This document shows positions 10,088 through 14,184 of a stretch of DNA of 64,000 nt, in pieces. The translations under genes were made by a program, and so were the position numbers. The DNA is taken from the NCBI GenBank assembly GCA_016873995.1, contig VGVR01000006.1:1-64000 (forward strand), given 5' to 3'. The first letter of the stretch is position 1. Each line of letters starts with the position of its first letter. The notes beneath the pieces are model-generated. The model was not told where the DNA came from and did no database searches. It saw nothing but the letters and a program-made list of their open reading frames with translations. The stretch is from Gemmatimonadota bacterium (GTDB taxonomy: Bacteria > Gemmatimonadota > Gemmatimonadetes > Longimicrobiales > Gaopeijiaceae).

Positions 10088-10867
10088 TCAGGCTCCCGGC
10101 GTTGGCGCCCGCGCGGCGCTGTCCGCTGCGGCCACGACTTCGGCGTGGACCGTGGAGAAGATCCCCCGAAACGCCTCGAGCGGCAAAGCGCCCTGTAGGG
10201 GTCCGTAGCCGACGATCCAGAACGTCGGTGTGGCCCGAATGCCGAGCTGCTGCGCAGCAACGGTCGCTCCCGCCACCCGCTCAATGCGTCGGTCCTCGGC
10301 GAGGCACGCATCGAATCGATCCATGTCGACCGCCGCCTCGGCAGCCCAGGCTCTGGCAAGCGCCTCCGGCTCATTGCTGGGCTTCCAGTCGGCCTGCCTG
10401 GTCCACAGAACCTCTCCGAACGCCTCGTACGCGGCAGGGCTTTGCTCGAGCACACACTCGGCCGCCTCCGAGACCGCGAGCGAGTTCTCGAACGTGCCGG
10501 TGATGAACGGCAGGAACTTCCACTCGATCATGCCCGTGTCGATGAACTCGGTCTCGAGCGTCGGAAAGGACTCCTCGTGGAAGCGGCGGCAGAAGCCGCA
10601 ACCGAAGTCCGAGAACTCGATCACCTTCAGCGGGGCCTCGACCTGGCCCCGGTTGTATCCGAGGTCGGGCAGGTAGGCACGGTTGGCGCGACCGATGATG
10701 TCCGGCACCCCGTCGAACGAAGTGGCGGGCCCTCCCCCAGGAGTCTGATTCAACAGCGCCCGCGTCGTCGCGTCCGTCCGCTCGTGCTCGGACCCCTCTC
10801 CGCCGCAACCCGCGAGCCCAGCCGAGATGAGCAGGGCCGCCGCTGCCATCGACTTTCGAGACCTCAT
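10088..10867 (-). CDS. DsbA-like thioredoxin-fold lipoprotein
   Basis: 259 residues: a lipoprotein signal (SAGLAGC, Cys21), then a thioredoxin fold with redox site FGCGFC (C90, C93) and a cis-proline segment ATPTFWI near the end. DsbA/DsbG-type proteins oxidise or isomerise disulfides in the periplasm. The ATG overlaps the ccdA stop (ATGA), so the two are translationally coupled; CcdA can supply electrons from the cytoplasm, which suggests a reductase or isomerase role here rather than simple oxidation. Confidence 0.88.
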   Translation of the reverse strand: MRSRKSMAAAALLISAGLAGCGGEGSEHERTDATTRALLNQTPGGGPATSFDGVPDIIGRANRAYLPDLGYNRGQVEAPLKVIEFSDFGCGFCRRFHEESFPTLETEFIDTGMIEWKFLPFITGTFENSLAVSEAAECVLEQSPAAYEAFGEVLWTRQADWKPSNEPEALARAWAAEAAVDMDRFDACLAEDRRIERVAGATVAAQQLGIRATPTFWIVGYGPLQGALPLEAFRGIFSTVHAEVVAAADSAARAPTPGA

Positions 10868-11601
10868 CCGACCTCCAGGTTCACCAGCTGGCCGAGCCCC
10901 GCCAGGAACGCCGCCAACTTCGAGAAGTGGCCACTCACCATCGAGAGGCCGATCACGACCAGCAGCGTACCCGCAACCCGCTGTAGCGGCAGCATCCATC
11001 TCCTCACCACGGCGCTCGCCGTGAGAAACCAACTGAACGCTGCCGCTGCCAGCACGAACGGCACACCGAGTCCAAGAGCGTAGGTGGCCAGAAGCAGCGT
11101 ACCATGGACCATCGTGCCCTCGAGGCCGGCGTACAAGAGGACCGACCCGAGGATCGGCCCGATACACGGGGTCCAGCCGGCGCCGAACGCGATGCCAGTA
11201 GCGAAGGAGCCGAAAACGCCGGCCGGTCGCGACGACAGGTGGAGTCGCAGGTCCCGCGTGAGTCCGGGCACGCGCAGCAGACCCACCAGCAAGAGCCCGA
11301 ACAACAGCACCACGACGCCGCCCAAGCGATGGATCAATGGGAGCGCGGCAGCGATCCGCACGCCGGCGGCGGTGGCGACGAGCCCCAGCGACATGAACAC
11401 GAGCCCTAACCCCAGCATGAACAAGGCGGCGTGAAGGAGCGCCCGCGCCCGCACCCCCGGCGAGGCAGGGGCATCGAGCTCCCCGAGCGTGAGGCCCGAA
11501 ACGAAGGCCACGCAGCTCGGCACCACCGGCAGCACGCAGGGCGACAGGAACGACACCACGCCAGCGGCGAACGCGAGAGGGAAGGAGACTTGGATTTCCA
11601 C
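10864..11601 (-). CDS. ccdA: CcdA-type thiol-disulfide transmembrane electron carrier
   Basis: 245 residues with about six hydrophobic segments. The two redox cysteines lie in the family contexts VVSFLSPCVLPVVPSC and GWTPCIGPILG. CcdA/DsbD-beta proteins carry electrons from cytoplasmic thioredoxin across the membrane to periplasmic thioredoxin-fold proteins, for cytochrome c maturation or disulfide repair. The partner here is the coupled DsbA-like lipoprotein. The nearby c-type cytochrome and PQQ dehydrogenase genes also need periplasmic thiol chemistry. Confidence 0.93.
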   Translation of the reverse strand: MEIQVSFPLAFAAGVVSFLSPCVLPVVPSCVAFVSGLTLGELDAPASPGVRARALLHAALFMLGLGLVFMSLGLVATAAGVRIAAALPLIHRLGGVVVLLFGLLLVGLLRVPGLTRDLRLHLSSRPAGVFGSFATGIAFGAGWTPCIGPILGSVLLYAGLEGTMVHGTLLLATYALGLGVPFVLAAAAFSWFLTASAVVRRWMLPLQRVAGTLLVVIGLSMVSGHFSKLAAFLAGLGQLVNLEVG

Positions 11602-11703: not shown

Positions 11704-13329
11704 CTAGGGGAGCGACCAGGCCGTCAGCGTCGTCCCCGCCGGCACCAGAACGTGCTGCTTCCCGTCCACCATGTAGGTAATGGGGGACGTGCCGTGCAGC
11801 GTCGCTCCCATCTGGTAGTGCCAGAGGAGCTGCCCGCTGCGCGAATCGAGCGCGAGGAGATTGCCGTCCGGGTCGCCGGAGAAGATGAGCCCCGATGCCG
11901 TGGTCAGCAGGCCGGCGGTGGACGGCGAGAGGTAACGGAACTCCCACTTGCGCTCACCAGTGGTCGGATCGAGAGCACGTAAGGCGCCGTATGCCGGGTT
12001 GTCGGGGTCGACGACGCGCTGACCGGCACCGCCGGTGAAGCGATCGCCTGGGGTGTATTCGGGCTCCCACGAGTAATAGGTCATGCAGACCTCCCGCGCG
12101 TTCACGAAGAACGTGCGCGTGGAGGGGTCGAACGCTGGCGGCCAGAAGTTCGTGCCCCCCGTGAGATCGGGGCACGTCACGGTGCCTTCCTCACTGGGAG
12201 TGTTCCCGGGAAGGAGGACGGGGCGTCCATCCGGGCCGATTTCCTTGGCCCAGGTGGTCTCGACGAATGGCTTGGCGACGATGAGCCTGCCCGTTTCGCG
12301 ATCCAGCGTGTAGTAGAACCCGTTCCGGTTCGCGAACATCACGACCCCGCGCGTCTGTCCGTCAATGGGGAGGTCAGCGAGGATCGGCACCTCCGTCGCA
12401 TCCCAATCGTGCACGTCGTGCGGCGTGAATTGGTAGTGCCAGCGCAGGCGGCCCGTGTCGGCATCGAGTGCCACGATCGAGTTGCTGTAGAGGTTGTCTC
12501 CCTCGCGCATCTCGCCGAAGTAGTCGGGTCCCGGGTTGCCGATACCGTAGAACAGCAGGTTCGACTCCGGATCATACGCGCCGGTCACCCAGACGCTCGC
12601 GCCCCCGGTCTTCCACGAGTCGCCGGCCCACGTCGCGCTGCCCGGCTCGCCAGGAGCGGGGATCGTATAGAAGCGCCAGACGCGCTGCCCCGTCTCCGCA
12701 TCGTAGGCGTCGATGAAGCCGCGAATGCCGTACTCACCACCGGCCACGCCTGTGATCACCTTACCGTTCACCACGATCGGCGCGATGGTGGATGCGTATC
12801 CGATGCTGTGCTCCTCTAGCTCCGCATCCCAGACCACCGATCCGGTGCGGGCGTCGAGCGCGATCAGGTGCGCATCCAGCGTGGCCATGAAGAGCTTGTC
12901 GCCCCAGATGCCGAAGCCGCGGTTCACGAGGCCGCAGCAGGCCGTCAGGTTGGTCGGTAGCTCGCGCCGGTAGCGCCAGATCTGCCTTCCGGTCCGCGCG
13001 TCGATGGCCCAAGCGACGTTCAGTGGCCCCGTCACATAGAGGACGTTGTCGCGGAGCAGCGAAGTCGTCTCGAAGTTGCCGAGCGTGCCCGTTTGGAACG
13101 TCCAGCGGGGTACGAGCTGCCCGACGTTCTGCGGGGTGATCTGCGTGAGCGGGCTGTGCCGCTGGTTGGCGTAGTCGCCGCCGAAGGTGAGCCAGCGTGA
13201 GCCGTCGCTGGGAAGGCCCGCGAGGATCTCCTGCGCGCTCACGGGGGCCAGCGGAGTGTTTTCCTGAGCCGACGCAACGTCGCTCGCCAGCATGACCCCG
13301 AACACCGCGGCTAAGGTCTCGAGACGCAC
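11704..13329 (-). CDS. PQQ-dependent alcohol dehydrogenase, likely lanthanide-type
   Basis: 541 residues from GTG 13329, eight bases after AGGAGG; the longer ATG frame would spoil the signal peptide (LAAVFGVMLASDVASA). An eight-bladed quinoprotein with the adjacent-cysteine disulfide (TACCG, 131-132), metal ligands in GGEYGIRG and GIGNPGPD, and the catalytic Asp in VHDWDATEVP (D308). Two residues on is D310, where calcium enzymes have Ser, Thr or Ala; an Asp there marks lanthanide-dependent enzymes. It should oxidise an alcohol or aldehyde in the periplasm, passing electrons to the cytochrome c encoded just upstream. There is no fused haem domain. Confidence 0.9.
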   Translation of the reverse strand: MRLETLAAVFGVMLASDVASAQENTPLAPVSAQEILAGLPSDGSRWLTFGGDYANQRHSPLTQITPQNVGQLVPRWTFQTGTLGNFETTSLLRDNVLYVTGPLNVAWAIDARTGRQIWRYRRELPTNLTACCGLVNRGFGIWGDKLFMATLDAHLIALDARTGSVVWDAELEEHSIGYASTIAPIVVNGKVITGVAGGEYGIRGFIDAYDAETGQRVWRFYTIPAPGEPGSATWAGDSWKTGGASVWVTGAYDPESNLLFYGIGNPGPDYFGEMREGDNLYSNSIVALDADTGRLRWHYQFTPHDVHDWDATEVPILADLPIDGQTRGVVMFANRNGFYYTLDRETGRLIVAKPFVETTWAKEIGPDGRPVLLPGNTPSEEGTVTCPDLTGGTNFWPPAFDPSTRTFFVNAREVCMTYYSWEPEYTPGDRFTGGAGQRVVDPDNPAYGALRALDPTTGERKWEFRYLSPSTAGLLTTASGLIFSGDPDGNLLALDSRSGQLLWHYQMGATLHGTSPITYMVDGKQHVLVPAGTTLTAWSLP

Positions 13330-13368
13330 GGTCGTAACCTCCTGAAAGAACATCTCGGAAAGACTACT

Positions 13369-14184
13369 TCAGAAAACCACAGGGGGCCGTTGCTCCACCG
13401 AGGGATCGAAGCCGCGGAGCGTGCCCAAGTACCGGACGAGGTCGGTCAAGTCGCTGTCGCTGAGGCGCTCGGGGCCGAAGATCGGCATCATCGATCGCCT
13501 GATGTCCACGACCGACCTGACCTGGTCCTTTCTGTAGCCTTGGATGCGCTCGCGCGTGTCCATGATCTGCACGGAGAAGAGATCCTCGTTCTTCTTCACG
13601 CCGCGAATGGGCGGACCTGACTCCGGCGTGATGGTTACGGGCTGGAAGCCGGGCCGCGGCTCGTCGATGCCGGTCCGGATGCGGCTCAGCAGAACCTCGC
13701 GGCTGCGCCCGGACCCGATGCGGGAGAGCTCCGGGCCGAGGAGCCCGCCCTTGGCGTTCACTCGATGGCAGCCCGAGCAGTTGTTCTCGAACACCAGGGC
13801 TCCGTTCCCGACATCGCCGGTCGGGAGATCGGTCGGAGCCGGCGAGGCGAGCGTGCGCAAGTACGCCAGGATCTGCCAAACATCTCGGTCGGAAGTGCGC
13901 GGCGCCGTGAACGCGGGCATCTCCGTGTTGCTCACCCCGTTTCGAACCGTGTTGAAGAGGCCACGGTCGGTGCGGCCGGACGACCATACCTGGGTGAGGT
14001 CAGGGGCGCGCACGCCGCGAGCGTCCATGCCGTGGCAGTCGGCGCAGCGCTGCCGGAACTGTCCCATGCCGGCGAGTACGGCGGCCGAATCGCCGTGGAA
14101 CGGGTTCGTCTCGGGGAGATCTTGGGCGACGAGGCTCGCGCAGGCGAGCGCGGTCGCGAACGTGAGCAACGCCAAGGAACGCAT
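13369..14184 (-). CDS. Dihaem cytochrome c, partner of the PQQ dehydrogenase
   Basis: 271 residues from ATG 14184 with an export signal (MRSLALLTFATALAC, then ASLVAQ) and two class I cytochrome c domains bearing CADCH and CSGCH, each followed by a likely Met ligand (EMPAF; MMPIF). It lies 39 bases ahead of the PQQ dehydrogenase gene in the same direction. A periplasmic electron acceptor for that enzyme is the natural inference. Confidence 0.88.
   Translation of the reverse strand: MRSLALLTFATALACASLVAQDLPETNPFHGDSAAVLAGMGQFRQRCADCHGMDARGVRAPDLTQVWSSGRTDRGLFNTVRNGVSNTEMPAFTAPRTSDRDVWQILAYLRTLASPAPTDLPTGDVGNGALVFENNCSGCHRVNAKGGLLGPELSRIGSGRSREVLLSRIRTGIDEPRPGFQPVTITPESGPPIRGVKKNEDLFSVQIMDTRERIQGYRKDQVRSVVDIRRSMMPIFGPERLSDSDLTDLVRYLGTLRGFDPSVEQRPPVVF

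Follow-up and report, generated by a model that had tools for sequence, protein, structure and literature searches.

Genes and features of the locus

The window analysed here is a 64,000-nucleotide stretch of a Gemmatimonadota genome. Both genes of the finding lie on its minus strand, a detail absent from the earlier note on this DNA. Positions 11704..13329 (minus) encode a PQQ-dependent dehydrogenase of the methanol/ethanol family, 541 aa long from a GTG start, recognised with TIGR03075, PF01011 and an AlphaFold model. A ribosome-binding site, AGGAGG, was read from the sequence at 13338..13343 (minus), 8 nt before the GTG at 13329. Counted from this start, the codons at 12400..12408 (minus) specify D308-W309-D310, identified by alignment with the PedH and XoxF structures as the catalytic Asp, a Trp and the lanthanide-type Asp. 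The numbers are those of the earlier note, and the D308-W-D310 motif it reported is confirmed on this frame. An alternative upstream ATG (13353) would give 549 aa, with the motif Asp residues as D316 and D318. The N terminus is signal-peptide-like, as judged by eye.

The protein scores 559.4 bits with TIGR03075, above the curated cut-off of 480, and matches the Pfam family PF01011. With the model for membrane glucose/quinate dehydrogenases (TIGR03074) it reaches 225.9 bits, below the cut-off of 832.65.

The likely electron acceptor, a dihaem cytochrome c of 271 aa from ATG, is encoded 39 bp upstream of the GTG (13369..14184, minus; PF13442/PF00034, two CxxCH). Its N terminus is also signal-peptide-like by eye. 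The second domain exceeds the TIGR02603 cut-off (78 bits versus 68); the first matches several models below their cut-offs, the best being NF011054 at 72 bits, with c550_PedF at 64 versus 122. The earlier note had placed a dihaem cytochrome directly upstream, and this arrangement proved to be conserved. Among the best 80 of 569 relatives, a homologue lies directly upstream in 67 of the 77 loci with room (61 of 77 by a narrower rule; three loci with too little upstream sequence were dropped). In one of the other ten, an acidobacterial MAG (L045:3218-5623), cytochrome and dehydrogenase form a single 802-codon frame, and this natural fusion supports electron transfer between the two. The available text of PMC12997753 describes a cytochrome, PedF, as reoxidising the PQQ of PedE and PedH.

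Downstream of the dehydrogenase by 102 bp is a gene for a CcdA/DsbD-TM-like membrane protein (10864..11601, minus; PF02683, 56 bits), perhaps in the same transcription unit. It overlaps by 4 bp with a gene for a thioredoxin/DsbA-like lipoprotein (10088..10867, minus; PF13462, PF01323). The two could serve haem or disulphide maturation. No homologues of either occur in the covered flanks of the best 80 of 569 relatives or of 29 phylum loci; hence, they are treated as neighbours only.

Metal site and structural comparison

The sequence of the dehydrogenase was compared with solved enzymes. The best solved relative is PedH (6zcv, 378 bits). D310 aligns with the second Asp of the W-D-F/Y-D motif in PedH 6zcv and XoxF 6dam, in an alignment free of gaps from before D308 through R335. 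At this position Thr is found in the type II enzymes 1kv9 and 1yiq, and Ala in 4tqo and 1g72, two methanol dehydrogenases aligned through a XoxF5 query. The alignment with XoxF, PedH and type II enzymes proposed in the earlier note thus puts D310 on the lanthanide Asp. E. coli Gcd also aligns with an Asp at +2, as D-M-D.

The metal ligands of PedH are tabulated in PMC11845868 as Glu199/Asn281/Asp323/Asp325, and all four have counterparts in the window protein: Glu199, Asn265, Asp308 and Asp310 in GTG numbering (the first two being E207 and N273 in ATG numbering). The Arg of the site and the CysCys pair are also present. The residue preceding the Glu ligand is Gly, as in XoxF; among the best 80 of 569 relatives it is Gly in 69, Ala in 10 and Ser in 1. 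Three residues past the Asn ligand stands Pro, as in PedH and MxaF, and not the Thr of XoxF, so this secondary mark of the XoxF type is absent.

The AlphaFold model (mean pLDDT 91) ranks PedH first in Foldseek (E 1.1e-56, TM 0.90). VIA-align gives Z 53.8 for PedH, with an rmsd of 1.4 Å over 509 residues, 51.6 for the type II enzyme 1kv9 and 51.5 for XoxF 6dam. Judged by the sequence alignment, D310 appears to sit at the metal site, and the protein has the Asp at +2 by which lanthanide-dependent PQQ alcohol dehydrogenases are recognised.

Conservation among relatives

Of 569 confirmed stretches the best 80 serve as the named relatives, with the best match per locus counted (one locus, L054, is split into two frames), so nearness to the query is built into the counts. 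The catalytic Asp and the Asp at +2 are kept in the main relative of 80/80 loci, as are Asn and Arg; Glu is kept in 77, with Asp in its place in the other 3. Both Asp residues are among the 56 invariant columns of a 52-row alignment (52/52). A second set of 29 loci was drawn from the phylum's whole genomes as best matches at E 1e-120, four of them duplicating DNA already counted in the 80; all 29 keep both Asp and likewise the other site residues. Neither set contains a case of Ala, Ser or Thr at +2.

The vicinal CysCys pair is more variable. In 36 of the best 80 of 569 relatives other residues stand in its place (Ala-Ser in 28), and these loci retain Glu, Asn and both Asp; 35 of the 36 lie between L056 and L096, and the remaining one is L105.

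Phylogeny and closest known systems

In a quick 58-row tree, which included 12/28 paralogues and 28/80 relatives, the window protein falls inside a 34-row clade (SH-aLRT 100) that is separate from the rows of XoxF/MxaF, of PedH and of the type II and sorbose dehydrogenases. The clade spans Gemmatimonadota, Acidobacteriota and Pseudomonadota. PedH is separate from the clade in this tree, but a position as its sister is not rejected by the AU test (p 0.546). Identity as XoxF finds no support in the tree or in percent identity: XoxF2, two XoxF5-type rows and MxaF, the tree's representatives of these groups (XoxF1, 3 and 4 were not included), form a 4-row clade of their own (SH-aLRT 100) without the window protein.

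Among the best 80 of 569, the nearest named relative comes from a Gemmatimonadetes MAG of Baikal and has 84% identity. The locus of G134, which belongs to the same genus as the window, is contained in that MAG's locus without a single difference, and this places the window in Gemmatimonadota. Judging from their record titles, most of the remaining members are Acidobacteria and Gammaproteobacteria. Two relatives titled Bifidobacterium breve and Acidimicrobiia (L039 and L035) are, by their company in the tree, probably mislabelled or misbinned MAGs.

Of the known systems, PedH of Pseudomonas putida KT2440 (6zcv/6zcw), a lanthanide-dependent ethanol dehydrogenase, shares with the window protein the fold, the metal ligands, the Arg, the CysCys pair and D-x-D, and likewise has a c-type cytochrome as electron acceptor. 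The two differ in sequence (38% identity) and in their place in the tree. PedH is paired with PedF, a c550, and the window protein with a dihaem cytochrome; furthermore, the host of the window has no recognisable PqqB, PqqC or PqqE. The XoxF methanol dehydrogenases (4mae, 6dam, 6oc5) share the fold, D-x-D, the Glu/Asn/Asp/Asp set and CysCys, but the window protein is 34 and 38% identical to two XoxF rows and lies outside the XoxF/MxaF clade. The D-x-D PQQ dehydrogenases of 17 families surveyed in the ocean (PMC11996626, available text) share the motif criterion with it; there, too, many copies per genome are described, in Acidobacteria and Pseudomonadales.

No member of the clade was found in the PDB copy searched, the nearest structure being about 40% identical, and the available text of the literature searched, PMC10875860 and PMC6784897 included, tied no paper to the clade or to the haem-containing protein described below. 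Among the D-x-D dehydrogenases, a known kind, the clade is a branch with all the lanthanide ligands and no solved member.

PQQ dehydrogenase paralogues in the genome

The genome contains 29 PQQ dehydrogenase frames, of which L021 and L022 are cut by contig ends; a short piece (C42:200-487) was omitted. When each was assigned to the nearest of eight references, 5 frames, including that of the window, went to PedH, 3 to type II enzymes, 9 to sorbose dehydrogenase, 12 to E. coli Gcd and none to XoxF or MxaF. Asp at +2 is the commonest state (25/29), as D-x-D in 18 and N-x-D in 7. The three type II paralogues have Thr, Thr and Asn at this position, and L008 aligns with a gap and Arg. Glu, Asn, Asp and Asp occur together only in the 5 paralogues nearest PedH; the other 13 of the 18 D-x-D frames are without the Glu-plus-Asn pair.

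The N-x-D frames are seven Gcd-like paralogues with Asn for the catalytic Asp and the Asp at +2 kept (W-N-Y/L-D): L022, L023 (5367-7685), L024, L025 (4497-6632), L026, L027 (4104-6242) and L028.

These counts bear on the metal. The earlier note had suggested a rare-earth-dependent oxidation. The aligned Asp, the other metal ligands and the conserved cytochrome agree with that reading; the identity of the metal is not settled by them, since an Asp at +2 also occurs in Gcd and in 25 of the 29 paralogues and is not exclusive to lanthanide enzymes. The enzyme might instead be calcium-dependent or metal-promiscuous, with D310 at the site but Ca2+ or Mg2+ used in the cell, like the membrane glucose dehydrogenases. 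E. coli Gcd has D-M-D there, and PMC11996626 lists Ca, Mg, Zn and Sr as metals it accepts and predicts it to be facultative, although the available text of that paper reads D-x-D as directly indicating that a lanthanide is bound; the 18 D-x-D paralogues of this genome, 13 of them lacking the pair of other ligands, point the same way. Unlike Gcd, however, the clade of the window protein keeps the full XoxF/PedH set of Glu, Asn, Asp and Asp (Glu being Asp in 3/80 of the best 80 of 569 relatives), and its nearest solved structure is the lanthanide-dependent PedH. We regard a calcium or promiscuous enzyme as the less probable case, though one to be taken seriously, and use of a lanthanide by the window dehydrogenase as likely.

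As the full ligand set is restricted to the 5 paralogues nearest PedH, the D-x-D rule alone may over-call lanthanide enzymes. This genome suggests that the rule, as used in metagenome surveys, should be read together with the other ligands.

PQQ supply

The earlier note had proposed looking for PQQ and lanthanide-uptake genes elsewhere in the genome (94.6% complete, 3.7% contaminated, 97 contigs). For uptake of lanthanides, the search covered lanmodulin, of which the genome showed no homologue (best E-value 0.8). For PQQ the outcome was divided: no synthesis gene among those searched exceeded its cut-off, and a homologue of a PqqU-type importer was found.

Of the synthesis genes PqqA to PqqF, the search covered PqqB, PqqC and PqqE. 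Over the whole genome, PqqB had no match, PqqC reached at best 40 bits (cut-off 240) and PqqE 59 bits (cut-off 381). Two candidates were rejected. C5:116016, considered as PqqC, is closest to the CADD family, where it scores 188 against that model's cut-off of 200; C41:5126, considered as PqqE, is closest to MoaA and is a fragment below the MoaA model cut-off.

The organism could still make its own PQQ with genes that are missing from the assembly or too divergent to be seen. The completeness of the genome and its 97 contigs leave room for this, and PqqC exceeds the cut-off in 34 of 298 genomes of the phylum, including one of the same family (G276, without PqqB or PqqE above cut-off). On the other hand, all three genes are absent here, while in the positive controls of the same order (G006 and G052) PqqB, PqqC and PqqE were detected above cut-off, together on one contig; the same-genus genomes G132 (89% complete) and G134 (97%) likewise have none of the three above cut-off. 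Own synthesis therefore seems improbable, and since none of PqqB, PqqC and PqqE can be recognised here, uptake of PQQ is presumed.

The candidate importer, a TonB receptor on contig 33, aligns along its length with PqqU of E. coli at 225 bits. The signature of PqqU given in the available text of PMC12124388 is an aromatic residue at 99, Arg304 and Arg365; the receptor has F99, K274, R304 and R365 and is without counterparts of Q84, Q121 and R536. The four other TonB receptors of the genome that were aligned all lack the signature. The same source names Gemmatimonadetes as frequent PqqU hosts, with PQQ synthesis in 23% of PqqU producers, and its available text draws no tie to this dehydrogenase clade.

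Across the 298 phylum genomes, a close dehydrogenase homologue (defined by E 1e-120, not by tree position) was found in 62 and a PqqU match in 224, the latter defined by E 1e-60 to this genome's own PqqU, with residues not part of the criterion. Of the 62, 53 are without PqqC above cut-off; 40 of these have a PqqU match and 13 have neither. Most of the sampled genomes have a PqqU match anyway, and the close homologue showed no association with PqqU or PqqC across the 298 (Fisher p 0.87 and 0.38). The window genome and the phylum counts fit the account in PMC12124388, as far as its available text goes.

Two further observations concern single taxa. In twelve genomes of genus g63 (family f7) a close homologue is present, but PqqC is missing and so is any PqqU match at E 1e-60; these bacteria may import PQQ by a different route or with a divergent importer, or may have no PQQ. 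The PqqC of G276 (C165:744-1451) is the only one above cut-off in the same family; a split assembly or a stray contig could explain why PqqB and PqqE are not seen with it, or the gene may stand alone.

The findings on supply also bear on whether the protein might be a cofactor-less ("empty") quinoprotein, whose propeller a species lacking PQQ has retained for some other function. Its second-best NCBIfam model is the acido-empty-quinoprotein group A (TIGR04528, 529.3 bits), which matches 52/52 alignment rows, and the genome has no PqqB, PqqC or PqqE above cut-off. Yet this score lies below the model's cut-off of 650, while the TIGR03075 score exceeds its own, and membership of the group was rejected; the eight relatives with scores given, at 508–544 bits, are all below 650 as well. 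Moreover, both Asp, the Asn and the Arg are invariant in the best 80 of 569 relatives, and a PqqU-like importer homologue is present. We hold an empty quinoprotein to be very improbable and retain the reading of an enzyme supplied with imported PQQ.

A haem/PHM-fold protein beside CysCys-less relatives

Among the best 80 of 569 relatives, a protein of about 500 aa follows the dehydrogenase in 23 of the 32 CysCys-less loci with room, versus 0 of 39 with CysCys; the 23 are largely one branch and are not independent events. The protein has one c-type haem motif (CxxCH), followed by what is modelled as a PHM/DBH-like copper monooxygenase fold. No Pfam family exceeded its cut-off in the three members scanned, and weak Cu2_monoox_C matches occur in 2 of 28 aligned members. 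With the model (pLDDT 75.8), the 27 best Foldseek rows are dopamine beta-hydroxylase and PHM (E 7e-8 to 9e-5), and the 26 best VIA rows have the same fold (Z 16.5 to 12.9; next fold 7.5). Examples are L056:5581-7098, L077:5633-7174 and, in the genome of the window (G000), C42:14355-15803 (L158), one of about 20 there. Once split pieces had been merged and two short weak matches dropped, 21 such regions were counted in this genome; for 7 of them a PQQ dehydrogenase is found no more than 5 kb away (p 0.0025 under uniform placement, the regions not being independent). The window's own gene pair has no such protein beside it.

Discussion

We infer the metal, substrate, electron path and PQQ uptake from computed observations: the fold, the ligand set, its conservation, the partner gene, the absence of PqqB, PqqC and PqqE above cut-off and the PqqU signature. 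The probable reading is a lanthanide-type alcohol or aldehyde dehydrogenase that uses imported PQQ and passes its electrons on through the dihaem cytochrome. The locus would then be a two-component periplasmic module for alcohol (or aldehyde) oxidation. The dehydrogenase would bind PQQ together with a metal, most likely a light lanthanide, coordinated by Glu199, Asn265, Asp308 and Asp310; Asp308 would act as the catalytic base, with hydride passing to PQQ, and the dihaem cytochrome c would hand the electrons on to the respiratory chain. PQQ would be imported, most likely by the PqqU-type receptor on contig 33.

Several results count against this reading: the prevalence of the +2 Asp among the paralogues and its occurrence in Gcd, the failure to find lanmodulin, the absence of the XoxF-type Thr (PedH, too, has Pro there) and the separation from PedH in the tree, though a sister relation is not rejected. 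Against the import part stand the receptor's missing counterparts of Q84, Q121 and R536, and the 13 of 62 genomes with a homologue and neither PqqC nor a PqqU match. The completeness of 94.6% and contamination of 3.7% of the genome also weigh on the reading.

A more speculative and rather unlikely proposal extends to the whole clade. It would be a distinct lanthanide-dependent family run largely by PQQ scavengers, whose CysCys-less subclade works in tandem with a cytochrome c-PHM/DBH fusion enzyme: the haem would feed electrons to copper, a C-H bond would be hydroxylated, the resulting alcohol would be oxidised by the lanthanide dehydrogenase, and electrons would return to the cytochrome pool.

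What is new is a D-x-D branch with the full lanthanide ligand set in a genus that apparently cannot synthesise PQQ. Should the predicted metal use be correct, the cell, with its 29 genes for PQQ dehydrogenases, would have to scavenge both PQQ and rare earths. Carbon oxidation by this organism would, if this is true, be tied to its neighbours and to minerals.
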